Assembly: GCF_900104775.1 (NCBI RefSeq)
Contig: NZ_FNSA01000003.1
Location: 2,790,001-2,854,000 of the forward strand
Origin: Tsukamurella tyrosinosolvens
GTDB lineage: Bacteria > Actinomycetota > Actinomycetes > Mycobacteriales > Mycobacteriaceae
Direction: 5' to 3'
Length of the DNA: 64,000 nucleotides
Shown: positions 38,449 to 62,094 of the stretch, one piece after another
Layout: each line of letters starts with the position of its first letter
Numbering within the stretch: position 1 is the first letter of the stretch
Notes under the pieces: model-generated
Told to the model about the DNA's origin: nothing
Seen by the model: the letters and a program-made list of their open reading frames with translations, nothing else
Databases searched by the model: none
Program-made: the position numbers and the translations under genes

Positions 38449-38471
38449 CTAGTCTCTAAAATAGAGACTAG
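38449..38471. promoter_or_regulatory. Palindromic operator, copy 1 (longest)
   Basis: CTAGTCTCTA-AAA-TAGAGACTAG, a perfect 23-bp palindrome with 10-bp arms. The inner 15 bases TCTCTAAAATAGAGA are the same in all five copies in the window. Here TAAAAT reads on the plus strand, opposite to the other four copies, so it could serve the kinase side as well as the minus-strand operon. Confidence 0.85.
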
Positions 38472-38642
38472 CACGCCAGCGTTCACCTAGGCTGGAATCC
38501 CTCTCGGGCGCTGCCTGCAGCCGCCTCCCGACGACATCCGACGACAGACCGAACACGCGATAAGCGCCCTACCTGCGAGTGTCGCGTCCTCGCTGTGCGT
38601 TCGAATGCCGCGCCGCAGAGGTGTTCACACGTTCGATCAACG

Positions 38643-38648
38643 TAGGCT
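38643..38648 (+). promoter_or_regulatory. -10 box before the kinase leader ORF
   Basis: TAGGCT, 7 nt before ATG 38656: the same leaderless spacing as elsewhere in the window. Confidence 0.5.
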
Positions 38649-38655
38649 TCCAGCC

Positions 38656-38706
38656 ATGTGCCGCCTTCTCACCGACCGCCGAACCGCCAGCGCGAGGCCG
38701 CGATGA
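38656..38706 (+). CDS. 16-codon leader ORF overlapping the kinase start
   Basis: ATG 38656 opens 16 codons, rich in Arg, whose TGA overlaps the kinase ATG (ATGA). Placed at the expected transcript start, it may be translated from a leaderless message and deliver ribosomes to the kinase start, which has no clear ribosome site of its own. Confidence 0.45.
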   Translation: MCRLLTDRRTASARPR

Positions 38707-40325
38707 CCGCCGGCGCCGACGAGGCTCCACCCCAGCTCGCGGGATACCAGATCACACGGCTGATCGGCGTCGGCGGAATGGGCAGGGTCTACCTCGCGAC
38801 GCGCACTACGGCGACGATGAGCGGTCAGCGCGCGATCAAGATCATGACGCCTGCGGCTCCAGACGGCGCCGCGCGGTTCCGGCGCGAGGTATCCATCCTC
38901 GCTGGTCTGGACCATCCGAACATCGTCAGGCTCTTCGACAGCGATCAGACCCCAGACGGCCGACTGTGGATGGCGCTGGAGTACGTCGCGGGCCCGGATG
39001 CCGCCTCAGTGCTGGCCCAGCATGGTCCGGTCGCGCTCCCCCACGCCATAGACATCGTCTCGGACGTCGCCGCGGCACTGGACTACGCCTACGCGCACGC
39101 TTCGATCGTCCACCGGGACGTCAAGCCCGCGAACATCCTCATCGCGCCACCGGCTGCGGGCAGTCGCCCGCAGGCCAAGCTCGCCGACTTCGGAATCGCC
39201 AAGCTGCAGCAGAACTCCACGTCGATCACGCAGACCGGAACCGCACTGGGAACCGTGGCCTTCATGGCACCCGAGACCCTCGAGGGATTCGACACCGGCC
39301 CCCTCGCCGACGTGTACTCGCTGGGTTGCACCGCATACGCGCTCCTGACGGGCTCGGCGCCCTTCGTCGAGAAGACGCAGACCGCCACCATCACCGCCCA
39401 CCTGACGCGGCGACCAGACACGATCACCTCACGGAACTCCGCGCTGCCGGCCGGGCTCGACGCCGTCTTCGCCAAGGTGCTCGCCAAGGCGCCGAACGAC
39501 CGATTCTCCTCCGCGGGTGCGTTCGCCTCGGCGCTCCGGGCCGCGGCCGCCGGCCAGTTCGACGCGCCTACGGCAATTGCGCCGCACCACTTCGCCGCGC
39601 CGACCCACGCCGCCGAGGTGTCCACCACTCCTGCCGCCGCCGGGCCCCGACGGTCGCGAGCCCTCGCGATCGGCGCCGGCGTAGTCACCGCCGTGCTGGC
39701 CGCTACCGCCGGCGGCGCCTACCTGATCAACCGCGGACAGGCCCCAGCTTCCGCGCTCGCGGCTGAAGACCTGATGCCCTCGAAGGAGGAGATCGGCAAG
39801 GCGTTCGGCGGAACCCCTACTGGAACCACAACCGCCGTGGCCGGCACGGTAGCCACGCCGACGAAGGGCATCACCCCTGCGCAGTGCGCATGGTTCACCA
39901 ACGGCCGCATCCCCATCGCTGCCGGCGCCACCGATGCCAGCCACAGCCAGTACCTGCTCGAGGACGCGGGCGCGGCGAGGATGTCCCAGGTGCACGTCGT
40001 GATCGCGCGGTATCCCGGAGCCTTGCCCACGACTACGCCCCCTGAGCGCGGTGCGTGCGAGTCCTTCACTGTGGCCGCCGACGCACCGGGGATGAACACC
40101 ACGATCGGCGTCGGAACAGCGCGCGTGGACGAGACGGTCAAGGGGGCCGTGCGAACGATGATCGTGTCCGTGCCCGCACCCGGCGGGGGTCTGGCGCCGG
40201 TAACCACGGTGCGCGCGTTGGGCACCCGCGGATCGACCATGGTGCTCGTGACCACGGACCGTCCCACAAGTCAGGCGGCCGCGGCCAGCATGGCCGCCGA
40301 GGTGCTCGACCGGGCGAGCTCGTGA
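38703..40325 (+). CDS. PknB/PknH-type membrane Ser/Thr protein kinase
   Basis: 540 residues from ATG 38703. Kinase domain about 14-275: Gly loop GVGGMG (22-27), Lys46 in AIKIM, HRDVKPAN (137-144), ADFGIAK, and APE near 190. A Pro/Ala linker and one membrane helix (about 315-338) lead to an outside domain of about 190 residues with cysteines (AQCAWF, GACESF), like the PknH sensor domain. It would sense a signal outside and phosphorylate Thr residues inside. Possible local targets include the acidic Thr-containing EccE tail (inference). Upstream GTG 38658 is in frame but is not preferred. Confidence 0.92.
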   Translation: MTAGADEAPPQLAGYQITRLIGVGGMGRVYLATRTTATMSGQRAIKIMTPAAPDGAARFRREVSILAGLDHPNIVRLFDSDQTPDGRLWMALEYVAGPDAASVLAQHGPVALPHAIDIVSDVAAALDYAYAHASIVHRDVKPANILIAPPAAGSRPQAKLADFGIAKLQQNSTSITQTGTALGTVAFMAPETLEGFDTGPLADVYSLGCTAYALLTGSAPFVEKTQTATITAHLTRRPDTITSRNSALPAGLDAVFAKVLAKAPNDRFSSAGAFASALRAAAAGQFDAPTAIAPHHFAAPTHAAEVSTTPAAAGPRRSRALAIGAGVVTAVLAATAGGAYLINRGQAPASALAAEDLMPSKEEIGKAFGGTPTGTTTAVAGTVATPTKGITPAQCAWFTNGRIPIAAGATDASHSQYLLEDAGAARMSQVHVVIARYPGALPTTTPPERGACESFTVAADAPGMNTTIGVGTARVDETVKGAVRTMIVSVPAPGGGLAPVTTVRALGTRGSTMVLVTTDRPTSQAAAASMAAEVLDRASS

Positions 40326-40384
40326 AGCCTCTTCGCGAGAATCGCGGCAGTTCATCGCGTCTGGCGTATCGAACACGGTGGCGG

Positions 40385-40469
40385 TAGACTGTCGCCAGAT
40401 CCTCTCCGTGGTTGGTCAGGGTTGGGCGGCGAACGGCCCGGCATTCCGATGCCGGGCCGTTCCCTTTTT
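40385..40469 (+). ncRNA. Candidate small RNA
   Basis: A TAGACT -10 box (40385-40390) flanked by GGCG and CGCC is followed by about 75 bp without an ORF and a strong terminator with a T-run ending at 40469. Such a promoter-terminator unit in an intergenic gap is a usual sign of a small RNA. It could also be only the kinase terminator with a chance -10 box. Confidence 0.4.
40432..40469 (+). terminator. Rho-independent terminator with T-run
   Basis: AACGGCCCGGCAT pairs perfectly with ATGCCGGGCCGTT (13 bp, 4-nt loop), followed by CCCTTTTT. It ends the kinase or small RNA transcript and lies between convergent units. Confidence 0.92.
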
Positions 40470-40487
40470 CCTGGTGGAGTGGACAGT

Positions 40488-40715
40488 TCAGTCCTGAGCC
40501 ACCAGTTCCCTCTCGTACTCCCAGAAGAGTGCCTGCGGGTCGAAACTGTCGGACCACCGAACCCGCACCATTCCCGCGTCGGGCGCGTCGGCGGTCAGGT
40601 CGTCCGGAGTCCAGGCCTTGCGCCGATCGTCGCGGATCACCGTTCCCGTCTGGCCTGGGCGTTCCGGGTGGGTTACGTGCCGCGGCTCGCGGCTCGCGGT
40701 CTTGTTCTCGCCCAC
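40488..40715 (-). CDS. Small acidic-end protein
   Basis: 75 residues from GTG 40715 (GAGAGGA upstream). Basic start, then DDLTADAPDAGMVRVRWSDS and FWEYERELV. Unknown. Last gene of the long operon that starts near 50066. Confidence 0.55.
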   Translation of the reverse strand: MGENKTASREPRHVTHPERPGQTGTVIRDDRRKAWTPDDLTADAPDAGMVRVRWSDSFDPQALFWEYERELVAQD

Positions 40716-40745
40716 TGCTTGTCCTCTCACTCCGTCGATGTCGGT

Positions 40746-40979
40746 TCAGCGATTCCGGGCGTCGTCCGCCGCCATCATCGCTTCGTGCAGCGACGGGTAT
40801 CCGGATCCGACCACTTCGACGTCCCACCCGTCCCGCTCGTAGAGCTGCGCCACCCACTCGCCGGCGTCGTTTCGTGTGACGCCCGCCGCGCGGTGCCCGC
40901 CGGCGACTGTGGCGATGTGCCACTCGACGTCGCCCTGCATCTCGGTGTGCCAGCCGCCGCGGCCCGGCCACGTGTTCAT
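40746..40979 (-). CDS. Small mixed alpha/beta protein
   Basis: 77 residues, ATG overlapping the previous stop (ATGA). Contains HTEMQGDVEWHIATVAG and YPSLHEAMMAADDARN, a pattern of two strands and a helix common in plasmid-borne small proteins. Unknown function. Confidence 0.6.
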   Translation of the reverse strand: MNTWPGRGGWHTEMQGDVEWHIATVAGGHRAAGVTRNDAGEWVAQLYERDGWDVEVVGSGYPSLHEAMMAADDARNR

Positions 40980-41239
40980 GGCGCCTCGTACCAGTCGGCG
41001 TCGTCCTCGGTGATCTGACTCTCGAAGATGACCTTCGGGAAGTCGCCACTGTCGAAGCTGCGCTCGTCGTAGCGGTCGACGCCGCGCGCCGCAGCGAGGG
41101 TGTCGAGGATCCGCTCCGTGCTCCACATCCCCGCGGAGTCGAGATCGACCAGCCCCTGGGCGACCAGGACGTCGATCAGCTTCTCTGGCGTGTAGTTCTC
41201 GGCCTGGTAGGTGTACCCGGCGATGGTGTCGGCGCTCAC
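40976..41239 (-). CDS. Small acidic protein
   Basis: 87 residues, GTG overlapping the previous TGA. Acidic, helical (TPEKLIDVLVAQGLVDLD). Unknown. Confidence 0.6.
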   Translation of the reverse strand: MSADTIAGYTYQAENYTPEKLIDVLVAQGLVDLDSAGMWSTERILDTLAAARGVDRYDERSFDSGDFPKVIFESQITEDDADWYEAP

Positions 41240-41397
41240 CGCAGGTCGTCCGCGTTCTCGCCGGAGTCGAACTCCACGTCCCAGTTCGTGGCGGCGTTCC
41301 AGTGCCCGGAGGTCATTCCGTTCTCGATCTGGCCGACGACCTCCTCCAGGTACTCAGTTGCCCGGTCGGCAGGGACGTTGATGGTGAGCTTGGCCAT
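41236..41397 (-). CDS. Small protein of unknown function
   Basis: 53 residues, MAKLTINVPADRATEYLEEV at the start, with AAGGAGGC a few bases upstream and a GTGA overlap to the next gene. Clear start and overlap make it probable despite its size. Confidence 0.65.
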   Translation of the reverse strand: MAKLTINVPADRATEYLEEVVGQIENGMTSGHWNAATNWDVEFDSGENADDLR

Positions 41398-41430
41398 TGC
41401 GGCCTCCTTCTCGTTCGATCTGGGGACGAA

Positions 41431-42024
41431 CTACTGGCCGGCGACGATGTGCGCGACGTGGGCCTGTGCGCGCGGGTCGCCCGGAATGTCGGACAGGTCT
41501 TCGGCCGGGGACAGCATCTCGGCCCGGAGTGAAGAGCCGCAGGTGGAGGAAAGAAGGACGCCGTCCTTCCGGAACCCCAGGATGAAGTCCGAGTCGGGCG
41601 AGAATCCGCCGACGAGGAAGCCGGCGCCGGGCGGCAGCGCGTCGATCGCCGCGCAGATGGCCTGGTTGTTTCCGCGCTCGACGACTGCCTGCTCGTCGCT
41701 GTCATCCCCATCGCTGCCCGCGACCTCGACGCGCGAAGCGTCGTAGTGCCACAGAGGCGTGTACTTGTCGGCGGTGATCTGCCAGGCGAGAACCTCGCCC
41801 TGCTCGCGGTCGAGGGTCACGGAGGAGTCCTCGACCATCTCCTCGACCGTCGCGTAGATGGGCTCATCGGCGAGGTATGCGTCCGGATCGTCCACCGTCC
41901 AGCCCCGGAGGAACACGGTCCGGACATCGCCGTCGTAGCTGATCAGGCCGATCGCTCCGGCCGGCTGGGTGAGAACTTCCTTGGCCGCGCCAAGGCCGCC
42001 GATCAGATCGTAGGTTTCCTGCAT
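41431..42024 (-). CDS. Hypothetical alpha/beta protein
   Basis: 197 residues, GAGAGG before ATG. Strand-rich (GAIGLISYDGDVRTVFLRGW) with an acidic middle and a second half carrying GFLVGGFSPDSDFILGF. No family recognised. Confidence 0.65.
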   Translation of the reverse strand: MQETYDLIGGLGAAKEVLTQPAGAIGLISYDGDVRTVFLRGWTVDDPDAYLADEPIYATVEEMVEDSSVTLDREQGEVLAWQITADKYTPLWHYDASRVEVAGSDGDDSDEQAVVERGNNQAICAAIDALPPGAGFLVGGFSPDSDFILGFRKDGVLLSSTCGSSLRAEMLSPAEDLSDIPGDPRAQAHVAHIVAGQ

Positions 42025-42039
42025 GGTGTTGCCTCTCTG

Positions 42040-42222
42040 TCAGGGCTCGAGGCAGACGCGATGCGCGCACTGCCCGCTGGTGACGGCGTTGCGGAACCAG
42101 ACGCCGTCGTCGGTGATCTCGCGGTCGTCCTCGGTGCATTTGCGGTGCGGCGCCATGTCCGAGCAACGGTGACCTCTACGCAGGTCGCTCTCGTTCATTG
42201 GGGAGGTGATCTCGGCGGCCAT
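42040..42222 (-). CDS. Small Cys/His protein
   Basis: 60 residues; RCSDMAPHRKC and SGQCAHRVC suggest a metal site. The start overlaps the upstream stop by one base. The next gene follows in 15 bp. Confidence 0.6.
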   Translation of the reverse strand: MAAEITSPMNESDLRRGHRCSDMAPHRKCTEDDREITDDGVWFRNAVTSGQCAHRVCLEP

Positions 42223-42473
42223 CAGCCCAGCCCTTTCTCGTCCAGGTGCTTGCCGAAGTGAGTACGGGCTATGAGGTCGACGTGGGACCTCTCCATCTCC
42301 TCATCGAGGAAGTCCCACCCGCACAGGGTGCATTCGGCAGCGGCGAAACACTTGTCCGGGCCGGACCAGGTCTGCACCTGGAACAGAAGATCCCCGTCCG
42401 GCAAGCGGAACTCGATCGTGCGGGTGTCCGGGCCCCCGTTGAACAGGCCGTAGTCCCCTTGTGGTGCGGGCAC
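42222..42473 (-). CDS. Small zinc-finger-like protein
   Basis: 83 residues from GTG 42473. CTLCGWDFLDEEMERSHVDLI followed by HFGKH: a C2H2-like spacing (split here into two quoted parts of one segment: CTLCGW and SHVDLIARTH). Could bind nucleic acid or only zinc. Confidence 0.65.
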   Translation of the reverse strand: MPAPQGDYGLFNGGPDTRTIEFRLPDGDLLFQVQTWSGPDKCFAAAECTLCGWDFLDEEMERSHVDLIARTHFGKHLDEKGLG

Positions 42474-42475
42474 GG

Positions 42476-42544
42476 TCAGACCTCCATCGGTGCGCCGTTG
42501 GAACTCGGCCTGTACAGCGCGCTCAGGTGTTCATGTTCGGCCAC
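42476..42544 (-). CDS. 22-residue micro-ORF
   Basis: GTG 42544 with GGAGGGAGG just upstream opens 22 codons (MAEHEHLSALYRPSSNGAP) and stops 3 bp before the next GTG. The ribosome site is good but the product is very short, so it may be a leader that couples translation. Confidence 0.4.
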   Translation of the reverse strand: MAEHEHLSALYRPSSNGAPMEV

Positions 42545-42691
42545 GGGGCCTCCCTCCACGATCGGGGTGCGAGTGCGGGTGAGCCTGCCACCGAAGCGCC
42601 CTCTGCCCCGAGCGTGGCGCGGACCCCGAGCAACGCCGCTGGCCGCGCCTTCCGCACCCAACCTGTAGGGCGCGGGGCATTCTGACCGACC

Positions 42692-43360
42692 ATGGACCCC
42701 GCCATAGCGCGAATCTCGAGCGGCCGTGACAGTGCCCTGCGCAGGGCACTGAGGCGGCATGTGCGCAACGCTACGTCGACGCGCCCCGAAGGTCGCGCGA
42801 GACGCCTCCTCGAGGTGGCGATGACCGACATGGCCCGAGCGCACGCCGGCGATCTCCGGGTACTCCACTCGAGCGTTGACCGAGTCGCAGAGGCCGTGGG
42901 TCGCGCGCAGCTCGACGAGATTGCCTCTGCCGTCGCCTCCGGCACCCTCGATGGCGAGATCACCTTCGACATGCGGGACGTCCACTGGAGCTCCCTCGAC
43001 GAGACGCCCACCCCGTACGGCACCTTCGTCGCGCACGTGCTGCTGCACCGGCACCGCCTGACCTCCGACCGCGGTGCGATGGCAGCGACATGCGCCCGGA
43101 TCGTCACGACGCCCAGGCTGGGCGAGCCGCCGGCGTGGGCCGAAGTCGCCCCCATCGCGCTGTCGCACCCCGACGCGGTGGTCGCGGGCGCCGCGGCTGC
43201 GGTCGAGATCAGTACCGCTGCGTGCGATCGGCAAGAACTCCTCGAGAAAGTCGCGTCCGAGCACCGCAGCAGTCCCCTATTGCCGGCCGCGCTGCTCTTC
43301 GTCGAGTCCGCGGTACTGGCCCACGACGGTGTCGGCGAGGCAGTGCGCAACGCGCCCTGA
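42692..43360 (+). CDS. Plus-strand helical protein inserted in a minus-strand array
   Basis: 222 residues, Ala/Arg-rich and helical with no membrane segment. It has HEAT-like alternation of helices (PIALSHPDAVVAGAAAAVEI) but no recognised family. It is the only plus-strand gene between 40.5 and 62 kb, with no clear ribosome site, and opposes the surrounding operon. It may be an insertion or a separately controlled gene. Confidence 0.6.
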   Translation: MDPAIARISSGRDSALRRALRRHVRNATSTRPEGRARRLLEVAMTDMARAHAGDLRVLHSSVDRVAEAVGRAQLDEIASAVASGTLDGEITFDMRDVHWSSLDETPTPYGTFVAHVLLHRHRLTSDRGAMAATCARIVTTPRLGEPPAWAEVAPIALSHPDAVVAGAAAAVEISTAACDRQELLEKVASEHRSSPLLPAALLFVESAVLAHDGVGEAVRNAP

Positions 43361-43370
43361 CAGTCGCACG

Positions 43371-47321: not shown

Positions 47322-47328
47322 GGTTCTC

Positions 47329-47802: not shown

Positions 47803-48270
47803 TCACGCGGCGTCCTCCGCCCGCCGTCGACGCGAATCGTCGAAGGTCAGCAGAGGCTTCGCCCTCTCCCCCGTCCTGAGCTCCACGTACCCCGCGGAGC
47901 GGTTGGCGCATGGGCCGCAGGTGCTGACACTGCAGTGGGGTCCGGTGCGGAAGTCGCCGGCGCTGACGGTTCCGATGAAGTCCGCGCGGTGGTCGCACGG
48001 CGGCTCGAGGTTCCCGCGCTCCTGCCTGAGGGGCTTCCTCCGTGACACCGGGACCACTTCACCGTGCGCGGCCTCCGCTGCGGCCAGTTCCCTCGCCAGG
48101 TGCTTCGCGAGGTCGTGGCCGATGTCGGTGGGGCCGGGCAGCACCAGCCAGTTGCGGTTGGGCCATGCCTCGAGTGCCCCGCCGATCAGCTCAACGAGCT
48201 CGCGCTCGCGTGAGCTCGCTTCGCCGCTGGCTTCACAGGACGTGGGGTTACCGATCTCGGGCACAGTCAC
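47803..48270 (-). CDS. Small protein with Cys cluster
   Basis: 155 residues from GTG 48270, overlapping the TPM gene stop (GTGA). A helical first half is followed by PPCDHRADF, HCSVSTCGPCANRSAG. Unknown family. Confidence 0.6.
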   Translation of the reverse strand: MTVPEIGNPTSCEASGEASSRERELVELIGGALEAWPNRNWLVLPGPTDIGHDLAKHLARELAAAEAAHGEVVPVSRRKPLRQERGNLEPPCDHRADFIGTVSAGDFRTGPHCSVSTCGPCANRSAGYVELRTGERAKPLLTFDDSRRRRAEDAA

Positions 48271-50066
48271 CAGCTCCCCGACGATCCGCCGCCGAAGTCA
48301 CCGCCGCCTCCGCTGTAGCCCCCGCCGCCGAAGCTGGACGAACTCGACGAATTGGAGGACCCCAGCGAGCCGAGGATCGCGCCGGTGGCCAGCCCCGACG
48401 CGTAGTCGGAGCCGTAGGACGTGCCGTAGCTGGACGAGCTCGACCGGCGCGCGAGGCGGCGTCGCCGTTCCTCCTCGGCGCGCCGGCGCCCCTCGGCCTG
48501 ATGCGTTGCCACCTGCCGGTCTACTTCCTCGGTCGCAGCGCGCGCCGCGCGCCGCAGGTCGTCCACCTGGGAGCCGAGTGCGTCGAGATCAGCCCCCTCG
48601 GCGGGGATCGCCGAGACCGTCACGTCCGTCTTGCGCGTCACCTCGAACGCGGCTACAACGGCGCGTTCGGCGGCCTCGGCTGAGACGCCGGGAACAGGCC
48701 GGCTGTACTGCTCGACGATCCGGGCGGCCCGGTCGCGGACGTAATTCAGCTCGGAGATCACGTGCCCGGCTCGCGCCACCTCGTCGGCCGCGGATGCGCG
48801 CAGCTGCGCTGCCTCCGAGAGCGCGGCGTCGACGTCCGCGCGCGGCGGCACATTCCCAGCGCCGATCAGATCGGCGCTGGCGAGGACCTCGTCGCGCTTG
48901 GCCCGCAGAGTCGCTCCGGTGTGAGACAGGTCGATGCCGGGCACTTCCGACGTAGCGGCCTGCTGGTCAAGCAGGCGCGCTTCGGCCTCGAGATCCGCAC
49001 GCTTGCGTTCCGGCGTGCACAGAGCGATCTTGGCCTCCGCCGCGTCGGCGAGGGCCACCGCTTCGCGATCCACGGACCGCAGCTGCTCAATGAGTCTGGT
49101 CAACGCGGCGACACGATCGAGAACCTTGTCCTCCGTGCCGTCATCGAGGATGCCCGCGGGACGGTCGACCTTGCGGCGGAGCTCGTCACGACGTGACAGC
49201 AGCTCGGTGAAGGCGCCCAGGTCGACGGTGCCCTCGGCTTCGGCCGCGGCGGCCGTGGCGCGAACCTTCGCATCCTCCACGCCCGACGTTCTCGCCGCTG
49301 TGGTCGCATCGCTTCGCGCTGCCGAGAACGAGCGGATGGCCGCGTCCAGCCGCCGGCGAGCCTCCCGAGCTTCCTCCTTGCGGCGCGATCGGGTCTGCAG
49401 GACGTGGAAGCTCTGGAAGGCGGCGAAGATGAAGATCGCGAGCGCGATGATCCCGATCGCGAACCGCAGCATGGCGCGGCCGCCCGCCATCGTCGAGACG
49501 TCAGACGCGGGCGCCGACACGAGCGGCGCCGACCCCGATCCTTCGGTCGCATCGGGGGCGGGCTTCAGGGCCTCGTCGAGCGCCACCAAGGTGCTGGTGA
49601 CGGCGCCTGTGAAGTCGGATCTGCGCAGATGCACGCCCATGTCTGCCCGCACGCGGTCGACCCACGGGTCGAGCCGGTGGAAGCTGGAGCCGTACTGGAT
49701 GGCGTTGGTGCGATCCATCCCGAACTGGACCACCAGCAGGTTCGGCTTCGGAGTCTTCCCGTCGGCGCCGAGCCAGGAGGGGCACTCACGGTACGCGTCC
49801 TGCCACCACACCGCGGCTGATCCACCGGGAGTGTTCTGGAAGGCGCGTACGTAGACATCGGCGCCCGTGGCTCCGCGCAGGTCCAGGACTCGTGTCGTGA
49901 CGGACGCGGAGTCGAGCACCTTGTCGTGGGTCGCATCGACGACCGGGGCGGAGCAGGCGCCCGCGGGATCCGCCTGCGCCGGCGAAGCGGCGAGCAGCAT
50001 CGGGCCGGCCGCGATAGCCGTGATCAGGGCAAGGCACGCGGAGCGGTGAACGGGGCGATGCGACAT
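48267..50066 (-). CDS. TPM-domain membrane protein with coiled coil and Gly/Ser tail
   Basis: 599 residues. Signal peptide 1-32, then a TPM (Psb32/YgcG-type) domain to about 180 (VDATHDKVLD, ADVYVRAFQN). One membrane helix follows (about 198-220), and a long charged coiled coil, about 225-520. The tail is SSSSSFGGGGYSGGGGDF-like and ends GSW, the same kind of tail as YgcG proteins. TPM domains bind metal and some have phosphatase activity; their role is poorly known. It is by far the largest protein in the small-gene array and the first gene after operator copy 2. Confidence 0.85.
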   Translation of the reverse strand: MSHRPVHRSACLALITAIAAGPMLLAASPAQADPAGACSAPVVDATHDKVLDSASVTTRVLDLRGATGADVYVRAFQNTPGGSAAVWWQDAYRECPSWLGADGKTPKPNLLVVQFGMDRTNAIQYGSSFHRLDPWVDRVRADMGVHLRRSDFTGAVTSTLVALDEALKPAPDATEGSGSAPLVSAPASDVSTMAGGRAMLRFAIGIIALAIFIFAAFQSFHVLQTRSRRKEEAREARRRLDAAIRSFSAARSDATTAARTSGVEDAKVRATAAAAEAEGTVDLGAFTELLSRRDELRRKVDRPAGILDDGTEDKVLDRVAALTRLIEQLRSVDREAVALADAAEAKIALCTPERKRADLEAEARLLDQQAATSEVPGIDLSHTGATLRAKRDEVLASADLIGAGNVPPRADVDAALSEAAQLRASAADEVARAGHVISELNYVRDRAARIVEQYSRPVPGVSAEAAERAVVAAFEVTRKTDVTVSAIPAEGADLDALGSQVDDLRRAARAATEEVDRQVATHQAEGRRRAEEERRRRLARRSSSSSYGTSYGSDYASGLATGAILGSLGSSNSSSSSSFGGGGYSGGGGDFGGGSSGSW

Positions 50067-50111: not shown

Positions 50112-50126
50112 TCTCTATTTTAGAGA
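50112..50126 (-). promoter_or_regulatory. Palindromic operator and -10 box, copy 2
   Basis: TCTCTAAAATAGAGA on the minus strand, 46 bp before the TPM gene. TAAAAT serves as the -10 box inside the palindrome. Confidence 0.85.
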
Positions 50127-50192
50127 CTACAGGGAGTATGTCTCCGCGCCAACAGCGATTGAGCGTGGCTCTCCGGCCGCGTCGCGAGCCGA

Positions 50193-56256: not shown

Positions 56257-56546
56257 AGGTTCTCTCCACCGGTCATGGCGACATGGTGGGCGAGCACGGC
56301 GCGGCGCTCCTTGTCGAGCGCGTTCTCGTCGATGCCGAAGGACTCGAACATGAGGCTGCGGCTCGAGCGCGGCACGGGCACCAGCTGCTCGTCGCGGAAC
56401 CCGGAATCCTCCTCGTAGTGCGCGAGCACGATTCCCTTCGCGTCGAGCCACTCGAGGAACTCGAAAACGGCGTCCATCTCCGCCTTCTCGGCGGTCATCT
56501 TGTCGATGACGGGAGTCGCGGGCGCGACCGTCTCCATCGCGCTCAT
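56253..56546 (-). CDS. Small acidic helical protein
   Basis: 97 residues. Acidic helices (KAEMDAVFEFLEWLDAKG), then ESFGIDENALDKERRAVLAH. Unknown. Overlaps both neighbours. Confidence 0.64.
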   Translation of the reverse strand: MSAMETVAPATPVIDKMTAEKAEMDAVFEFLEWLDAKGIVLAHYEEDSGFRDEQLVPVPRSSRSLMFESFGIDENALDKERRAVLAHHVAMTGGENL

Positions 56547-56806
56547 GCCGCATCTCCGACGGAGTCGGCGACGGCGTTGAAGTTGAGCGGCCGCGGAGCG
56601 ACGTCGAGGGCCCCGCCCGGGGCGAGCTCCAACTTGATCGCTTCGGCGACCTCGCCGGCGAGCCAGACGGCGTCCTCCTCCGAGAGCGTGCGTCCACGCT
56701 GGTGGTCGTAGCCGGGGTTGATCCCTCGATCGGAGATGGTCTCCGCGATCACATCCGCGAGACGGTGCGTCTCGATCGTGGCGAGTTTCGCTGTCTGGAT
56801 CGCCAT
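56543..56806 (-). CDS. Small protein, first gene after operator copy 3
   Basis: 87 residues, CAGGAGG before ATG. Helix LATIETHRLADVIAETISD and a region with EEDAVWLAGEVAEAIKLEL. Unknown. The operator lies 47 bp upstream. Confidence 0.66.
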   Translation of the reverse strand: MAIQTAKLATIETHRLADVIAETISDRGINPGYDHQRGRTLSEEDAVWLAGEVAEAIKLELAPGGALDVAPRPLNFNAVADSVGDAA

Positions 56807-56852: not shown

Positions 56853-56871
56853 ACTCTCTATTTTAGAGAGT
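56853..56871 (-). promoter_or_regulatory. Palindromic operator and -10 box, copy 3
   Basis: ACTCTCTAAAATAGAGAGT, a perfect 19-bp palindrome with the invariant 15-bp core at 56855-56869. TAAAAT reads on the minus strand towards the operon 56806-50193. Confidence 0.87.
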
Positions 56872-56918
56872 AGAACGTATCCGTCCGAGACGCAACAGCG
56901 CCTCCCCGAGCGCCTCGC

Positions 56919-57083
56919 TCATTCCGTGCCGCGGACAATTCCGCAGGAGCGTAGATCGTCAACCGCCAGCTGCAGGCGAGCGAGGAGCTCCTCAGCCTCG
57001 CGCAGCGGAATCGACTGGTACGGAACCTCGATCACGAGTCGGTCGAACTGGACCACGATGTCCGCGTTCGGCTCAGCCGCCAC
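56919..57083 (-). CDS. 54-residue protein
   Basis: GTG 57083, overlapping the previous gene by 11 bp. Strands DIVVQFDRLVIEVPYQSIPL, then an acidic helix (REAEELLARLQLAVDDL). Last gene of its operon, just before operator copy 3. Confidence 0.58.
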   Translation of the reverse strand: MAAEPNADIVVQFDRLVIEVPYQSIPLREAEELLARLQLAVDDLRSCGIVRGTE

Positions 57084-57279
57084 AGCGCGCCTGCTCGAAG
57101 TCGGGGCGGTAGAAGTACTCCGCGGGGCCGTCCGAGCGCCAGCGCCCGTCGTCGGTCTTCGCGCGGATGTTCCCGTTCTTGAAGACGTGAGTCACCCGCA
57201 GCGGCCGCTGCTTGAATGCCGCCTCGTACTCCCGGTAGTCGACCGGCAAGACGATGTCGCCCACCTGCAGGTCAGTCAT
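57073..57279 (-). CDS. Small beta-rich protein
   Basis: 68 residues from ATG 57279 (GAGAGGAA upstream). VGDIVLPVDYREYEAAFKQ, then LRVTHVFKNGNIRAKTDDG, like a small SH3-type barrel. Related in layout to the protein at 36511. Confidence 0.65.
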   Translation of the reverse strand: MTDLQVGDIVLPVDYREYEAAFKQRPLRVTHVFKNGNIRAKTDDGRWRSDGPAEYFYRPDFEQARCGG

Positions 57280-57316
57280 AGCATTCCTCTCATCGTGCGC
57301 TTCAGCGCGGGAAGGT

Positions 57317-58108
57317 TCATCTGGGGCCGGTGCCGTTCGTTGGTGACGGGATCTGGTTCCGCGGCGTTGCGACGCGCCCCATGATGGTGAGCCGAGAGAG
57401 CGCCATGGTCTGCGCGTTCGGGGCGGGGTCCTCGGAGGAACCTGTTGCGGCGAGAACCGTGACCGACAGTGCGCGCGACGCCACGGTGGAGTCGATACGG
57501 AACGTGACTGGAGCACGACCGGGACGGACAGGCTGGGTGTAGACGGAACCGCCGGTCCGCCAGGTCAGGAGCGTCGGACTCCCGACCGTGGTCCACATGT
57601 CCACGCCACGGTCGTCGACGTAGTCGTAACCCGGGACGAACGTGACTGCCGAGACCGCGACCTCACGTTCGAAGACGATGTTGAGGACCGGGCGTGTGTC
57701 TTCGCTGCCACAGACCCATGCCCTGGTCGGATTCTGGGCGAGCGCTCCCACCGGGTCCGATCCGATCCGGTTGCAGGTCGTCGTCAGGGCCAGCGGAGTC
57801 AGCGGAACCTCGGGCGCAGCCCAGTCCACGACCCAGTCGGTCGCCGAGGACGGCGCCGCCGCCCCCGGGGGGCGTGGCGTGACCGGTGTCGGCCACGCCC
57901 CGATCTCCTCGGTCTTCGGCGCGGCGCCGAGCCGGTTGAGCGCCTCGGACGTGCGGTAGGTGGTGTAGAGGCCGACCAGGCTCAGCACCAGAGACGCGAC
58001 CGCCGCTGCGAGCGTGACGGCCTGCAGGCGTGGAACTCGCCTCGACGAGCCCCAGGGATCGGCGGCGATCACAGGGACGGCGGGCTCGGGATTCGGATCG
58101 AGCGACAT
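57317..58108 (-). CDS. Membrane-anchored protein with discoidin-like domain
   Basis: 263 residues from ATG 58108 (TGATG overlap). One membrane helix (about 32-50, VTLAAAVASLVLSLVGLYTT), a Pro-rich linker, then a beta domain: LNIVFEREVAVSAVTFVPG, YVDDRGVDMW and FRIDSTVASRALSVTVLA. This order of strands resembles F5/8 type C (discoidin) or NPCBM domains that bind sugars; pattern only. It may sit outside on the cell wall. Confidence 0.68.
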   Translation of the reverse strand: MSLDPNPEPAVPVIAADPWGSSRRVPRLQAVTLAAAVASLVLSLVGLYTTYRTSEALNRLGAAPKTEEIGAWPTPVTPRPPGAAAPSSATDWVVDWAAPEVPLTPLALTTTCNRIGSDPVGALAQNPTRAWVCGSEDTRPVLNIVFEREVAVSAVTFVPGYDYVDDRGVDMWTTVGSPTLLTWRTGGSVYTQPVRPGRAPVTFRIDSTVASRALSVTVLAATGSSEDPAPNAQTMALSRLTIMGRVATPRNQIPSPTNGTGPR

Positions 58109-58272
58109 CAAGGGTTCTCCTCGCAGTAGCAGCCGCAGTTCTCGCACGCCCCCGGCCCGAACACGTCGGGCGGCGCACACTCACCGTCGGCGTAGCAGGC
58201 GAAGCCTGCTCCGTCCCGGCCGACCGGGCGCCAGCAGCGGCGACAGATGAGTTCGGGCACGAGGTCAGCCAT
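58108..58272 (-). CDS. 54-residue Cys-rich protein
   Basis: ATG 58272 lies within the end of the previous gene, and the TGA overlaps the next ATG. LICRRCWRPVGRDG, FACYADGEC and ACENCGCYC: eight cysteines, two zinc sites likely. Confidence 0.67.
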   Translation of the reverse strand: MADLVPELICRRCWRPVGRDGAGFACYADGECAPPDVFGPGACENCGCYCEENP

Positions 58273-58450
58273 CATCGCCCCCTCCGTCCCGGCTCGATGG
58301 GGTGCGGCGGCGACCCCGCGTGAGTCGGTGGGTGAGGCGACGACGCTGAGCTCCGAAGAACCGGCGGAGGCGGCCCGGCCGACGCGAGCGGCCGTCGCGG
58401 TCGAAGAAGTCCAGCGCCGTGTCGAGCAGCTCCTCGAAGATCTCATCCAT
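58265..58450 (-). CDS. Small basic protein
   Basis: 61 residues from ATG 58450 (GTGGAGG upstream). Acidic helical start (MDEIFEELLDTALDFFDRD), then Arg-rich (RRFFGAQRRRLTHRLTRG). A basic tail of this kind may contact nucleic acid. Confidence 0.62.
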   Translation of the reverse strand: MDEIFEELLDTALDFFDRDGRSRRPGRLRRFFGAQRRRLTHRLTRGRRRTPSSRDGGGDDG

Positions 58451-58793
58451 GGCGCACTCCTCCACGTTCGGAGCCGTCTCGCGGTGCGCAGCAGTGTGCG
58501 CGGTGCAGGAGGTCGTCGGCTTCATCCTCGGAAGCAAGGTCCTCGTGCGTGATTGCAGCGAGGTCGCCGGCGACGGAGATCACGCCGGAGCCGTACTCGT
58601 CGCCCTGCACCAGGATCTCGACGAGGCCGGCGGTCGCCGGCACGGTGACGTGCTCAAGGTGATCGGCATCGTGGAGAGCGTGCGCCACCCGGACGAGCAG
58701 CAGCGCGAGGAACTGGCGAGGGGGCAGCCGTCGCGCCTCGTCGAGGGTTCGCGCCGCGGTGTCGAAGAGTTGGACGATCGGCCCCCTACCCAT
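58443..58793 (-). CDS. Small helical protein
   Basis: 116 residues. Helical with LPPRQFLALLLVRVAHALHD and strands TAGLVEILVQGDEYG. Cys pair AHCCAPR near the end. Unknown. Confidence 0.62.
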   Translation of the reverse strand: MGRGPIVQLFDTAARTLDEARRLPPRQFLALLLVRVAHALHDADHLEHVTVPATAGLVEILVQGDEYGSGVISVAGDLAAITHEDLASEDEADDLLHRAHCCAPRDGSERGGVRHG

Positions 58794-59166
58794 GGCACCA
58801 CCCGGTATGGCGGCGACCGCACGCGGTGCAGTCCAGCGGCGCCGGGCTGCAGAGACCGCGCCCGCACTCGACCCCGAAGACGCAGCCGCTGCACATGATC
58901 GAGTAGCGCTCGATGTGGCCGGTGTAGCCGACGGTCTCGCCGCGCCGGCCGCAGCACTCGCAAACCAGGCGCCCTTCGACGCACCACCGTGCCACCAGTT
59001 CGGCGTAGTGGCGGCGCCGGATTGCGTCTGCCTCGATGCCGATCCGCCACGGCGCGATCGGCGTGACGGGGTGTGTGATGCCGTACCAGAGCAGCATTCG
59101 ACGCAGACGGCGGTTCGTGCCGGCGCCGGCCGGCCTTCTCGCGGCCATCCAGGATGTGGTGCTCAC
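58786..59166 (-). CDS. Cys-rich zinc-binding-like protein
   Basis: 126 residues from GTG 59166. Basic start, then RWCVEGRLVCECCGRRG, MCSGCVFGVECGRGLC and LDCTACGRRHTGWC. At least three CxxC-type pairs. Unknown function; probably nucleic-acid or protein binding through zinc. Confidence 0.68.
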   Translation of the reverse strand: MSTTSWMAARRPAGAGTNRRLRRMLLWYGITHPVTPIAPWRIGIEADAIRRRHYAELVARWCVEGRLVCECCGRRGETVGYTGHIERYSIMCSGCVFGVECGRGLCSPAPLDCTACGRRHTGWCHG

Positions 59167-59396
59167 GGCTCCTGGTCCTGACCCTGAATCGTCAGCACGA
59201 TCACGAGCTGGTCGTCCTCCACCCGCAGGCGCGACCAGTCGTCCATGGAGGTGCTGATCCCGTGTTCCTTAGCGACGTCCTGGGCCCACTTCAGCGCGAT
59301 ACCGAAGTCCTTCCAGTCGCCACCCTCCGGCCACGGACACGGGACGATGAACCGGTGTTCGGTGACGGTGCGCACGGTGTGAGTTGCGTTGGTCAT
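59163..59396 (-). CDS. Small protein
   Basis: 77 residues, GAGGAGG before ATG, GTGA overlap to the next gene. HRFIVPCPWPEGGDWKDFG, then a helix and strands (LRVEDDQLVIVLTI). Unknown. Confidence 0.63.
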   Translation of the reverse strand: MTNATHTVRTVTEHRFIVPCPWPEGGDWKDFGIALKWAQDVAKEHGISTSMDDWSRLRVEDDQLVIVLTIQGQDQEP

Positions 59397-59746
59397 GAGG
59401 CCTCCTCGAGGGTCGGTCGGCGGGACGCGTCTGTGGGCGGGTCAGATGTGAGGTTCTGCACGACCACGCCGCGCTTCTTCGTCGCGGACCACAGACGGAC
59501 TGTGGCGCCGCTGGCGTCCTCTCGCCGCACCTCCCAGCCGACCCAGACGCCTTGGCGATAGACGTCGGTGATCGTCGTCATGCCGCCGCCGAGGTGCCGC
59601 ACCGTGATGCTGTGATCGGTCCTGTGCCGCATTCGTCCGCGATGGTGCTCGACGCGCGGCTGGGCACAGACGCGAGCCTCGAGGCCTGCCTTGTTGATGG
59701 AGGCGGCGAGGCGGTCCCATCGTGATTCTCCGTGCGGCCCCGTCAC
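59393..59746 (-). CDS. Small beta-rich protein
   Basis: 117 residues from GTG 59746 (GTGA overlap). Helix WDRLAASINKAGLEARV, then strand pairs (SITVRHLGGGMTTITDVY, WVGWEVRREDASGATVRLW). Unknown. Confidence 0.63.
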   Translation of the reverse strand: MTGPHGESRWDRLAASINKAGLEARVCAQPRVEHHRGRMRHRTDHSITVRHLGGGMTTITDVYRQGVWVGWEVRREDASGATVRLWSATKKRGVVVQNLTSDPPTDASRRPTLEEAS

Positions 59747-60114
59747 AGTCGCACCAGGGTGTGGTCTCGGACGACGTCTGCCGTTCTCCGGCACTGCGGA
59801 CAGAACCACGCGACGGAGCACTCGCGGGAGACGTACTTGCGTAACGAGCGCTGCAGCCACCGGGCGCAGGGGTCACACACCACTCCACGAGCCCGCTCGT
59901 GCTGGACGGTGAGGCACGGTTCCAGCGTCAGGCGCCACAGCGCGGGACCGTGGTAGGCCCGGGCTCCGCGCTCGGCCCCGACGAGATGCGCGTGGCACGT
60001 GATCCGTCTGCTGAGCATCCGCTCCAGCGCCTCGACCTCCTCGATGCCTGACGGGCCGAGGCCACTGATGTCTTCGAAGGCCCGAGTCACGTCCGGGTCG
60101 ATCCGCTCTCGCAT
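59743..60114 (-). CDS. Small Cys-containing protein, first gene after operator copy 4
   Basis: 123 residues, AGGAGG before ATG. A helical start (EEVEALERMLSRRI) is followed by RGVVCDPCARWLQRSL and AWFCPQCRRTADV, two CxxC pairs. The operator ends only 12 bp before the start codon, so repression would be direct. Confidence 0.68.
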   Translation of the reverse strand: MRERIDPDVTRAFEDISGLGPSGIEEVEALERMLSRRITCHAHLVGAERGARAYHGPALWRLTLEPCLTVQHERARGVVCDPCARWLQRSLRKYVSRECSVAWFCPQCRRTADVVRDHTLVRL

Positions 60115-60126
60115 ACACCCTCCTAG

Positions 60127-60141
60127 TCTCTATTTTAGAGA
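60127..60141 (-). promoter_or_regulatory. Palindromic operator and -10 box, copy 4
   Basis: TCTCTAAAATAGAGA on the minus strand, followed by CTAGGAGGGTGT and ATG. The close fit of -10 box, ribosome site and start shows that this palindrome is a promoter. Confidence 0.9.
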
Positions 60142-60188
60142 TTATCAGGAAGTGGTGGAAGGTCAAGATTTTCGATGAGGCGCGCCAT

Positions 60189-60209
60189 TGGGGCGGTGAA
60201 TCCGCCCCA
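60189..60209 (-). terminator. Hairpin after the operon 61792-60214
   Basis: TGGGGCGG pairs with CCGCCCCA (8 bp, 5-nt loop), a few bases past the last stop of the rightmost operon. Confidence 0.55.
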
Positions 60210-60213
60210 GAGG

Positions 60214-60450
60214 TCAGGACGCGGTCTGAGCGGCGGTCGCGGTGTCCGCATCGACGACTTCCATGTGGCTCCAGAAGCCCGACGCCCACACCACGTAGCG
60301 GATCTCCCCCCGCGTGTTGTCCGCGTGCGCGAGATGCAGGGTTCCGTTCCGGTCGACCTCGTCGTAGCTCACGCTGTCGTACCGCACGGGGGTGTCCTTG
60401 CCGGCCGGGTAGACGAGAACGGCCTCGAGGCTGGGGTTGTTGTTCGACAT
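60214..60450 (-). CDS. Small beta-rich protein
   Basis: 78 residues from ATG 60450 (GAGAGGAA upstream). Strands LEAVLVYPAGKDTPVRYDSV, then EIRYVVWASGFWSHMEVVDA. Unknown. Confidence 0.64.
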   Translation of the reverse strand: MSNNNPSLEAVLVYPAGKDTPVRYDSVSYDEVDRNGTLHLAHADNTRGEIRYVVWASGFWSHMEVVDADTATAAQTAS

Positions 60451-60517
60451 GGGGTTCCTCTCGGGGTGGATTGGGCGGAGCTTCTGCCCAGCGACCTGTT
60501 GGGGGCCGCTAGGAGGT

Positions 60518-61117
60518 CTAGGCGGCGACGGTCTCCCCGCCGGCCTCGTGGAGCCGATGGAAGACCGACAATGCGGTGCGCTGCCAGGATTCGGCGACAT
60601 GGAACGACCGAATCGTGTCGGCCGCCTCCGGTGCGGTGGCGAGGAACGCCATGATGGCGCCGTCGCGGAGGTAGAACTGGGTGCCGTAGTAGTTGCCGGC
60701 GGCCCGCATGCCGGAGTCGATGCCCGTGACGTAACTGCCCAGGCGCGGCTCCCGCTCCAGGGCTGCGAAGCGCTCGGATGAGCCGGTCGCGCGGTCCGCG
60801 GCGGTGCGCCGGGACGGCACCAGGAGCCCGAGCTTGACGCTCAGGCGCCACCCCGGCGCAGGCGCACCGTCGCCGGCGGGCGCGAACCCGGCGACACGCG
60901 TCACCCCGAGAGAGCTCTGGGTGTAGACCTCCTCGAAGGACGATCCCGCCTCCTCGGCGAGCACGGTGATGTCGCGAACCCACTGAGCGTGAGCCGCCTC
61001 GAAGACCTGCGCCTCGTCGAGGTGGATGGGGTCCGTAGTGATCCACCAGGCGGCCGGCGTTCCCGCGGGTACCGGGGCCAGGAGCTTCGCGAGCTTGTCC
61101 AAGTCAGGGGTGAGCAT
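60518..61117 (-). CDS. Hypothetical alpha/beta protein
   Basis: 199 residues from ATG 61117 (GAAAGAAG upstream). Trp-rich start (TPAAWWITTDPIHLDEAQ), helix, strands (GWRLSVKLGLLVPSRR) and a region with NYYGTQFYLRDGAIMAFLAT. No family recognised. Confidence 0.65.
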   Translation of the reverse strand: MLTPDLDKLAKLLAPVPAGTPAAWWITTDPIHLDEAQVFEAAHAQWVRDITVLAEEAGSSFEEVYTQSSLGVTRVAGFAPAGDGAPAPGWRLSVKLGLLVPSRRTAADRATGSSERFAALEREPRLGSYVTGIDSGMRAAGNYYGTQFYLRDGAIMAFLATAPEAADTIRSFHVAESWQRTALSVFHRLHEAGGETVAA

Positions 61118-61164
61118 GTCGGTCTTCTTTCGCGCGTGGTTGGTCGGGAGGGCAGTCGCGTCGG

Positions 61165-61446
61165 TCAGTCCGGCGCTTCGCCGTCGGGCAGGAGGTGTTC
61201 GAGCACCCAGGGCGGGACGTCTTCGGACCCGGCGTGCCACACGCGGTAGGTCAGCTCGTCGCCGTGTTCGCCGCCGGCGAGCAGAACCGGCCCCCAGGCG
61301 AGCACCGCCCACGCGCCGCGGATCGCGTCCGCGACGACGCTCTGGACCTCGTGCGGGCAGAACAGCTGGCCGGATTCGGACCGTGGCGGGGCGACATCCC
61401 AGTCACTCACCAGAGCGGCGAGAATCTCGTCGTCGTGCCCATGCAT
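61165..61446 (-). CDS. Small protein
   Basis: 93 residues from ATG 61446 (GAGGAGG upstream; GTG 61455 is an alternative). FCPHEVQSVVADAIRGAW, then strands AVLAWGPVLLAG and ELTYRVWHAG. Unknown. Confidence 0.63.
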   Translation of the reverse strand: MHGHDDEILAALVSDWDVAPPRSESGQLFCPHEVQSVVADAIRGAWAVLAWGPVLLAGGEHGDELTYRVWHAGSEDVPPWVLEHLLPDGEAPD

Positions 61447-61459
61447 CGTGTCCACCTCC

Positions 61460-61792
61460 TCAGCTCGCCACGGGAAGCGTGAAGGACGAGACCCGGTACC
61501 CCAGCTGTGCGAGCGCGAGCTCGGGGTCCGTAGTGCCGGCGACGGAGCGGTGCTGCCAGAAGTCGGCGATGTCGCCGTCCGAGGCTGCGGGGTACACGTG
61601 GCAGCTGTTGCGCGGCGGGTCCGGGATGACGAGGACTGCGCGCGGTACGTCGGCGCCGACGACCATCGGCCGGCTCAGGAGGTAGTAGCGCTGCTCGGTG
61701 CCGATCCGGCTTCCGCGACGGTGCCGGACGCTCTCCATCGCGACGGGGCGCGAATCCACGGGCACGTCAGTGGTGGCATCGAAATCAGCCAT
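61460..61792 (-). CDS. Hypothetical protein, first gene after operator copy 5
   Basis: 110 residues from ATG 61792 (GAGAGGACC upstream; in-frame ATG 61831 is an alternative). RYYLLSRPMVVGADVPRAVL, CHVYPAASDGDIADFWQH. Unknown. The operator is 288 bp upstream, the longest leader of the five operons. Confidence 0.64.
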   Translation of the reverse strand: MADFDATTDVPVDSRPVAMESVRHRRGSRIGTEQRYYLLSRPMVVGADVPRAVLVIPDPPRNSCHVYPAASDGDIADFWQHRSVAGTTDPELALAQLGYRVSSFTLPVAS

Positions 61793-62079
61793 GGTCAGGT
61801 CCTCTCGGCCGCAGGCAATCAGGTCAGGCATCGCAGGTCTACTCGATTCCGTGGATCGGGTTGGTGGGCGGCGCGGGTCTAGCACCGTATTCCGGAGCAC
61901 TGACGGATTTGGGCCTGGCGAGTGGGCCGCCGCACGTACAGACGGACCTCGAAGTCCTAATCGAGAACCCCTTCCTCTTCCCAGCCGTGACCGGCTCTCG
62001 CATCGCTCGGACCGAGATGCAGAGCGACGAGGGCGTTGATCACACCGACACAGAAGCGTCCGGCACCTCACCGTCAGAC
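61793..62079 (-). other. Long leader without a clear gene
   Basis: 287 bp between operator copy 5 and the first gene. I see no ORF with a ribosome site and no strong hairpin. It may be an untranslated leader with a regulatory role, or it may hold a lost gene. Confidence 0.35.
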
Positions 62080-62094
62080 TCTCTATTTTAGAGA
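62080..62094 (-). promoter_or_regulatory. Palindromic operator and -10 box, copy 5
   Basis: TCTCTAAAATAGAGA on the minus strand, flanked by CTAA and GT as in copies 3 and 4. Heads the operon 61792-60214. Confidence 0.82.

Follow-up and report, generated by a model that had tools for sequence, protein, structure and literature searches.

Small helix-turn-helix (HTH) proteins which act as autoregulatory dimers include DdrO and the C proteins of restriction-modification systems, each of which controls one or a few promoters. In the IncP-1 plasmids, the KorA operator overlaps the −10 element, and KorB is a CTP clamp. The stoperators of Cluster A mycobacteriophages are many dispersed copies of one repressor site, asymmetric and oriented with transcription. 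In plasmid p576, one plasmid-encoded repressor governs its own promoter and those of establishment genes in several operons, and release on entry follows because the DNA, and not the repressor, is transferred (PMC8708921). RP4 genes are induced transiently in transconjugants (PMC7314908). The giant tRNA-array plasmids and elements of mycobacteria are characterised by their size class, their tRNA array and a hybrid of type VII and type IV secretion systems (T7SS/T4SS; PMC12803027, PMC5966550), and Mycolicibacterium austroafricanum is listed among the carriers (PMC5966550). The present analysis concerns a 64,000-nucleotide stretch of the Tsukamurella tyrosinosolvens genome (the window; C3:2790001-2854000, C3 being contig NZ_FNSA01000003.1 of a genome of 5,281,118 bases in 4 contigs), which lies within a 363-kb integrated element. 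A 15-bp motif that recurs in it is probably the core of an element-wide dyad operator for dimeric XRE/HTH_3 repressors encoded by the element itself. The 2026 paper on the giant plasmids (PMC12803027) contains in its main text no instance of 'operator', 'promoter', 'repressor' or the stem 'palindrom', and a literature search found no published account of the operator or its 15-mer.

The motif, TCTCTAAAATAGAGA, was recovered in a window scan as five exact copies, in the places given by the earlier note on this DNA: 38453–38467 on the plus strand, and 50112–50126, 56855–56869, 60127–60141 and 62080–62094 on the minus strand. Allowing three mismatches gave 10 matches, which are the same five sites each read on both strands; shuffled sequences lead one to expect 0.06. 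The motif had been described as palindromic. It is indeed a dyad, but an interrupted rather than a perfect one, with 6-bp arms (TCTCTA and TAGAGA) flanking an asymmetric AAA. The arms reach 8 bp at copy 56855, giving the total of 19 bp previously recorded, and 11 bp at copy 38453, where the total is 25 bp rather than 23 bp. The statement that no other exact copy exists is correct for the window, but not for the genome, which holds 28 copies with at most one mismatch (16 exact and 12 one-mismatch; reversed control 0). All 28 fall within C3:2529145-2852094, inside the integrated element (C3:2519997-2883420), which holds all sites. When two mismatches are allowed, 31 sites are counted in the element, against 0 for the reversed control and none in 157 kb of flanking host DNA. 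Judged at one mismatch over the genome and at two over the element and its flanks, a common operator stands at many of the element's operons and is absent from the rest of the host.

The placement of the sites is mostly intergenic. All 30 intergenic TCTC-N7-GAGA strings in the element match the motif with two mismatches or fewer, and seven of the eight found inside annotated coding sequences have four or more; the eighth is the site at 2731577, at the 3' end of one gene, with a start codon following 19 bp further on. By annotated starts, an outgoing gene or transfer-messenger RNA (tmRNA) lies within 300 bp on one side only at 21 of the 31 sites, on both sides at 8 and on neither at 2. Among the 21 unambiguous sites, 19 are 6–60 bp from a start codon or the tmRNA 5' end.

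In the window, copy 38453 lies 37 bp from the minus-strand gene 38005–38415 and 235 bp from the plus-strand kinase gene 38703–40325; the nearer gene is on the strand opposite to the AAAA reading, contrary to the earlier description. Copy 50112 is one of the two sites left without a gene by annotated starts. There a nearer ATG, at 50066, is favoured, since the GAGGAG in front of it resembles a ribosome-binding site, and the annotated start at 49718 is set aside. The first open reading frame after the operator (48267–50066, minus strand) would then encode 599 aa. Copy 56855 is 48 bp upstream of gene 56543–56806, copy 60127 is 12 bp upstream of gene 59743–60114, with a ribosome-binding site and ATG directly after it as had been reported, and copy 62080 is 287 bp upstream of the annotated gene 61460–61792. 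Operator-headed runs of same-strand genes comprise 32 of the 88 annotated window genes by a gap rule devised for this analysis, so that the nearly 60 genes formerly proposed are too many for the window; over the whole element a simple run rule gives 222 of 502.

The operator recurs on related elements. The exact 15-mer was found, among 401 genomes of the family, only in its own genome and as one single site elsewhere, at the start of a MarR-like gene (family by inspection); the draw also included 15 further genomes of the genus, all without it. A pattern with C/G flanks retrieved 17 stretches from the GTDB contig collection, two of them with G+C above 0.6 and both on NZ_HG964454.1 of M. austroafricanum DSM 44191. 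This organism has 20 sites with up to two mismatches on three contigs (21 rows, one site being matched on both strands; control 0). tblastn matches (E 1e-5) in its contig parts were obtained for 136 of the 502 element proteins, some from general families such as IS21 transposases, and homologous proteins of the two organisms are 24–82% identical. In the genus of M. austroafricanum, TCTCTAWWWTAGAGA occurs in 10 of 396 genomes (control 0), five of which, M. austroafricanum itself (G644) included, carry 5 to 10 copies and five carry one. The parts of genomes analysed represent four lineages: Tsukamurella; M. austroafricanum with G1021; G730 with G767; and G800. Genomes were paired on the strength of XRE genes 99% alike or of coinciding site flanks, and G767, G800 and G1021 were covered in part. 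Together the five mycobacterial genomes and Tsukamurella supply 88 distinct sites, which in G730 are spread over 242 kb, and the operator can thus be followed into diverged elements, as was suggested for relatives of this replicon. In the 15-bp core, eleven columns are shared by at least 86 of the 88 sites and the other four by 80, 81, 71 and 79, an agreement which is partly by construction, the sites having been picked with up to two mismatches. The flanks differ by lineage, being TAC or TAG in Tsukamurella and TAT in M. austroafricanum. A single 2-mismatch site was also seen near a primpol-like gene of an apparently smaller element (G008, L168). In viral contigs, a scan for the 15-mer matched at least 120 stretches with a median G+C of 0.37, 2 of the 120 listed exceeding 0.58. 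These were taken as chance, given the low G+C and the tblastn matches listed there, which include only cytosine-methylase and RNase H and no XRE of this kind.

The operator itself points to candidate repressors. Only five protein queries have an operator with three mismatches or fewer within 260 bp upstream in at least two lineages: an RNA ligase, a ParB-like protein, a poly(ADP-ribose) polymerase (PARP) with a WGR domain, and two XRE proteins. The first XRE type, in Tsukamurella a protein of 346 aa (C3:2634312-2635352), has an operator with 0–1 mismatch just upstream in 4/4 lineages, one genome being taken for each. The gene adjoins eccB and its operator is 24 bp upstream; in M. austroafricanum a 99-aa XRE likewise adjoins eccB, with the operator at 18 bp, and similar genes in G730 and G800 have operators with one and no mismatch, respectively. 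The second type, 92 aa in Tsukamurella (C3:2653714-2653992), begins with MPIHPQR or a close variant and has a degenerate self-site upstream. In M. austroafricanum, G730 and G800 this site has 3 mismatches and lies at 19, 36 and 29 bp, respectively; in Tsukamurella it has 4 and lies at 23 bp. In 1,502,195 bases there are 10 positions with exactly three mismatches, of which 4 lie at type 2 genes (G1021 included); the reversed control yields 2 such positions. Per 60 bp, the control rate comes to 0.00008 at 3 mismatches and 0.0005 at 4. The degenerate self-operators are well above background in 4/4 lineages. The part of G767 analysed, which ends at a contig end, contains no XRE.

Both Tsukamurella proteins exceed the curated Pfam cut-offs, the 346-aa protein with HTH_31 (37.9 bits) and HTH_3 (27.5) and the 92-aa protein with HTH_3 (44.2 bits) and HTH_31 (42), whilst the mycobacterial homologues were assigned by tblastn and alignment only. 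The best solved structures for the XRE profile are C.BclI and C.AhdI, followed by another XRE, a 434 variant, ClgR and DdrO, with P22 c2 lower. Both types, having a site at their own promoter in 4/4 lineages, may be autoregulated. The earlier note had favoured a different protein, an XRE-like product of 34342–35043 (plus strand), as the best local candidate repressor. That choice is unsupported: the protein matches no Pfam family at E 0.01 and one PHROGs family of unknown function, its gene has no operator near its start (the nearest site is at 38453), and it is absent from the five multi-lineage queries. It has a 29%-identical homologue in M. austroafricanum; a search for loci related to it found none. 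As judged from sequence, the two XRE proteins outside the window fit the repressor role far better.

The ParB-like protein (197 aa, C3:2557578-2558171) raises the question of whether the operator belongs to it instead, in a KorB-like combination of partition and repression, leaving the XREs as just two of the targets. Its gene does have sites of its own, which count against assigning the operator to the XREs: one of 2 mismatches 18 bp upstream in Tsukamurella and one of 0 mismatches 4 bp upstream in G800. The protein also gives weak ParB matches in PHROGs; however, it matches no Pfam family at E 0.1, so that no HTH is reported, and the M. austroafricanum homologue has no adjoining site, the nearest being about 1.5 kb away, upstream of the presumed operon. 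Moreover, parS sites are clustered, whereas the operators stand at single promoters. We regard this explanation as improbable.

The operator appears to overlap promoters, albeit not as first proposed. At the unambiguous sites, TA occupies positions −3 and −2 of the gene-side flank in 15/21 cases compared with 5/21 on the far side (discordant pairs 12:2, p 0.013), and hence the −10 candidate is TANTCT, 7 bp upstream of the TAAAAT previously named. A scan in gene direction puts the top TTGACA-like score (2.38; mean 1.34, sd 0.36) at offset −26, leaving 17 bp to TANTCT. Orienting the sites by their TA flank gives the same peak in Tsukamurella (3.15; mean 1.39, sd 0.35; 20 sites), whilst the top lies at −20, 18 bp from TAAAAT, in M. 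austroafricanum (3.0; 20 sites) and G730 (2.94; 16 sites). Strong TTG boxes, counted with strands pooled over 31 Tsukamurella, 26 M. austroafricanum and 23 G730 sites, follow this pattern, with 6 at −26 and 3 at −25 in Tsukamurella and 5 at −20 in each of the others, although four of the five in G730 look like two orthologous site pairs from two kin genomes. The PARP promoters have TTGTCR at −20 or −19 in M. austroafricanum, G730 and G800, and CTGTCA at −20 in Tsukamurella. It seems, then, that one operator holds two −10 registers, and two promoter classes are proposed because of the −35 offsets. Class I, to which the window copies would belong, would have −10 TANTCT at the operator edge with a −35 TTG 16–17 bp upstream; class II, as at the PARP promoters, would have −10 TAAAAT/TATTTT inside the operator with TTGTCR about 18 bp upstream. 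TANTCT with its matched TTG −35 probably fits the window promoters better than TAAAAT, which seems to fit the second class.

The candidate −10 elements in the window are all on the minus strand. At copy 50112 TAGTCT (50124–50129), in the class I register, is preceded by the putative −35 TTGGCG (50147–50152) with a 17-bp spacer. TAATCT at copies 60127 (60139–60144) and 62080 (62092–62097) would be served by TTGACC (60161–60166) and TTGAGG (62114–62119), both with 16-bp spacers. TACTCT (56867–56872) has a weak candidate −35, TTGCGT (56890–56895), outside the list of strong boxes, and TAGTCT (38465–38470), the candidate for gene 38005–38415, has no good −35 (AGCCTA).

These −10-like sequences would also suit a motif that is itself a promoter consensus, read by an element-encoded activator or alternative sigma factor, and the motif is indeed located at promoters. 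Yet a promoter hexamer would be one-sided, and the outer four bases of both arms are equally conserved (86–88 of 88 per side). Towards the centre the balance is less even, with 80 and 87 of 88 in the left arm and 79 and 71 in the right. In addition, the −10 seems to take one of two positions with respect to the dyad, depending on the lineage, a housekeeping sigma factor suits the TTG-type −35 boxes, and the element annotation tables, which are incomplete, name no sigma factor. This account, too, is unlikely.

The best reading is still that of the earlier note in its outline, a single dyad operator lying over the promoters of many operons and bound by a dimeric HTH repressor; the sites, their placement and the XRE self-operators speak for it, whilst its −10 assignment is probably wrong for the window promoters and the 34342 protein is unsupported as repressor. 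From the sites, their positions, their conservation and the operators at the XRE genes we infer XRE binding, repression and a hold-and-release purpose. Dimers of the XRE/HTH_3 proteins would bind TA-n-TCTCTA-AAA-TAGAGA-n-TA, covering the −10 region and keeping RNA polymerase off dozens of operons. Type 1 would control itself through a near-consensus operator and type 2 through a degenerate and presumably weaker one. Cargo and establishment genes would be silent in the resident cell and released on repressor loss or on entry to a repressor-free cell, where, by analogy with p576 and RP4, a burst of expression would be expected. By a similar analogy the two XREs may compete like CI and Cro. A fuller version, in which strong and weak self-operators make the pair an element-wide establishment switch, dozens of operons firing on entry and then being shut in the CI/Cro manner, is a tentative proposal that we find possible but doubtful. 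The operons firing on entry would include those for the PARP-like enzyme, RNA ligases, tmRNA and many small proteins, plausibly serving anti-defence and RNA repair.

A number of observations weigh against this reading or some part of it. The second of two tandem type 2 genes in M. austroafricanum has no operator-like site in the 60 bp upstream (best 7 mismatches). The residues S-R-I-E-x-G-x-R-P-x-R are invariant in 9/9 aligned XREs, but SRIERG-type helices are common among XRE proteins, and a common helix alone proves little. Eight of the 31 sites have genes on both sides and two have none within 300 bp. In the gene-direction scan the offset −7, beside the dyad, scores nearly as high as −26 (2.33 vs 2.38), and the peak in G800, where 5 sites are oriented, is at −9 and backs neither promoter class. 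Certain sites of G730 and G767 are almost identical to one another. A test for compensation between −10 registers within Tsukamurella did not detect it (Fisher p 0.68; 30/31 sites), the counts being slightly off as site 2731577 was assigned to the minus strand; its sequence, followed by a ribosome-binding site and ATG, fits better the plus-strand gene 19 bp away. No site with up to two mismatches lies near the M. austroafricanum tmRNA gene or in the Tsukamurella tRNA array, so the regulon is part of the element only. Finally, 23/31 sites and 15/16 exact copies have the AAA core on the minus strand, whatever the gene direction, which the core matches at 12/21 unambiguous sites. A symmetric repressor leaves this strand bias unexplained. 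The intergenic imbalance of the plus strand (TTTT 65 vs AAAA 36, the sites themselves counted in) accounts for part of it at most, and in G730 the core orientation is mixed.

The same bias, in an element that looks conjugative, is what favours the alternative raised in the earlier note, single-stranded-DNA promoters active on entry into the recipient. Frpo-type promoters are long folded regions, whereas these dyads are short, with arms of 6–11 bp and a 3-base loop, show duplex-like −35/−10 spacing and stand at genes on both strands. The related M. avium giant plasmids are, furthermore, without a relaxase (PMC12803027), and this alternative is very unlikely. Six stretches from a Cyclobacteriaceae metagenome-assembled genome (L207, L214, L215, L220, L221 and L223) hold one AT-rich repeat, a chance look-alike. 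A repeat family or chance motif, which that look-alike and the single copies in 5/396 genomes and at the MarR-like gene might suggest, has a negligible claim, and an orphan motif is rejected, in view of the genome and element counts with controls of 0, the intergenic placement before start codons, the differing flanks of the element sites and the recurrence in four lineages.

The genes under the operator include some that recur between lineages. The WGR-PARP gene (C3:2721098-2722393; Pfam PARP, E 3.9e-24) has an operator 16–39 bp upstream in 4/4 lineages and the RNA ligase gene one 27–37 bp upstream in three. In Tsukamurella one operator copy has its end 6 bp upstream of the tmRNA gene (C3:2659649-2660075), and in the G730 element a 2-mismatch site lies 5 bp upstream of tmRNA. 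About 5 kb from the WGR-PARP gene there is an ADP-ribosylglycohydrolase gene (NZ_LR134450.1:273689-274651).

The element itself is bounded by an exact 90-bp direct repeat (C3:2519997-2520086 and 2883331-2883420), which corresponds to the opening 90 bp of a flotillin-family gene. Next to the repeat, at the left end, stands a gene for a tyrosine integrase (2520289-2521629), and G+C drops from about 0.73 to 0.68 within. The annotation includes EccB, FtsK/EccC-like, EccD, MycP, TcpA-like and DUF87 ATPases, of T7SS and conjugation type, and with the exception of DUF87 these match M. austroafricanum; judged from such genes the element looks conjugative. The annotation tables, which are incomplete and leave 24.6 kb (2663234-2687859) uncovered, name no relaxase. 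The element also encodes DNA polymerase A, a primase-polymerase, two RNA ligases and the WGR-PARP, besides tmRNA and 38 tRNA genes (C3:2679199-2711646). A phage was considered and rejected, since 24 kb of the window had no match in a phage collection and the seven element tables, which leave the same 24.6 kb uncovered, name no phage structural gene. Over 24 kb the window sequence matches, at 100.0% identity, the record NZ_LR134450.1, 'plasmid 8' of T. tyrosinosolvens NCTC13231, which opens with chromosomal genes (tyrS, recN, scpB, recC) and is collinear with the chromosome contig. NZ_LR134455.1 ('plasmid 13') spans most of the element's other half and holds the flotillin gene and its neighbours. 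Both 'plasmids' are probably pieces of chromosome.

Within the window, the T7SS/T4SS block occupies 26968–34009 on the minus strand (FtsK/TcpA-like conjugation ATPase, a 764-aa protein, mycosin MycP and EccD), and a bifunctional primase-polymerase is encoded at 20160–23285 on the plus strand. The Ser/Thr kinase at 38703–40325, 235 bp from copy 38453, resembles PADLOC PD-T4-6 models (E 5e-79). Amongst 10 proteins examined with PADLOC, those with model matches were a kinase, two methylases and the RNA ligase, whilst Pfam at E 0.1 gave no family for 14 of 20 proteins, mostly from operon-first genes. ARAGORN places a 96-base tRNA-Glu, unusually long and doubtful, among small open reading frames at 36394–36489 (minus strand); an Rfam search of the window gave 0 matches. 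Elsewhere in the element, proteins with helicase-associated-domain repeats are found at C3:2566338-2572979 and 2858827-2859672, with operator site 2571399 inside the first cluster and site 2573039 just upstream of it.

The operator regulon is real, element-wide and conserved. It provides a testable regulatory handle on the large tRNA-array mobile elements of mycobacteria and their relatives, whose genes are mostly hypothetical, in that it marks out a regulon and leads to two candidate repressors. Targets that recur, namely PARP in four lineages, RNA ligase in three and tmRNA in both Tsukamurella and G730, suggest ADP-ribosylation and RNA repair or rescue as functions that would be needed at defined moments in the life of the element. 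Were the switch reading true, the operator could be used as a marker for a regulon of small genes of unknown function, and if these are expressed on entry they become candidate establishment or anti-defence genes.

A number of parallels can be drawn with described systems. The element shares its size class, tRNA array and hybrid T7SS/T4SS with the giant mycobacterial plasmids, but no operator site, at two mismatches or fewer, turned up in two tRNA-array plasmids of M. chimaera (322 and 438 kb). The operator is therefore not general to plasmids of this kind. With the stoperators it shares many copies of a repressor site dispersed over an actinobacterial mobile genome. Those sites are asymmetric and oriented with transcription, however, whereas the element sites are promoter dyads whose core matches gene direction at 12/21 unambiguous sites, and a phage stoperator system was rejected on this ground. 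The C proteins supply the two solved structures closest to the XRE profile, C.BclI and C.AhdI, yet they act at one or few promoters and the element has dozens of sites over 363 kb. A network of element-wide repressors is also found in KorA, KorB and TrbA of the IncP-1 plasmids (RK2/RP4), although their families differ from XRE and cooperativity of the KorB type is not known for the element. A further parallel is the clade II establishment regulon of p576 and pLS20 (EGeRS2, Bacillus plasmids), where an element-encoded repressor likewise has its own promoter and those of several operons as targets. The p576 repressor is a ribbon-helix-helix protein, whereas the Tsukamurella element would use XRE/HTH_3 proteins of two types, acting at dozens of sites on integrated elements of the Mycobacteriales. 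Thus a conserved regulon of these elements is built on a known principle.

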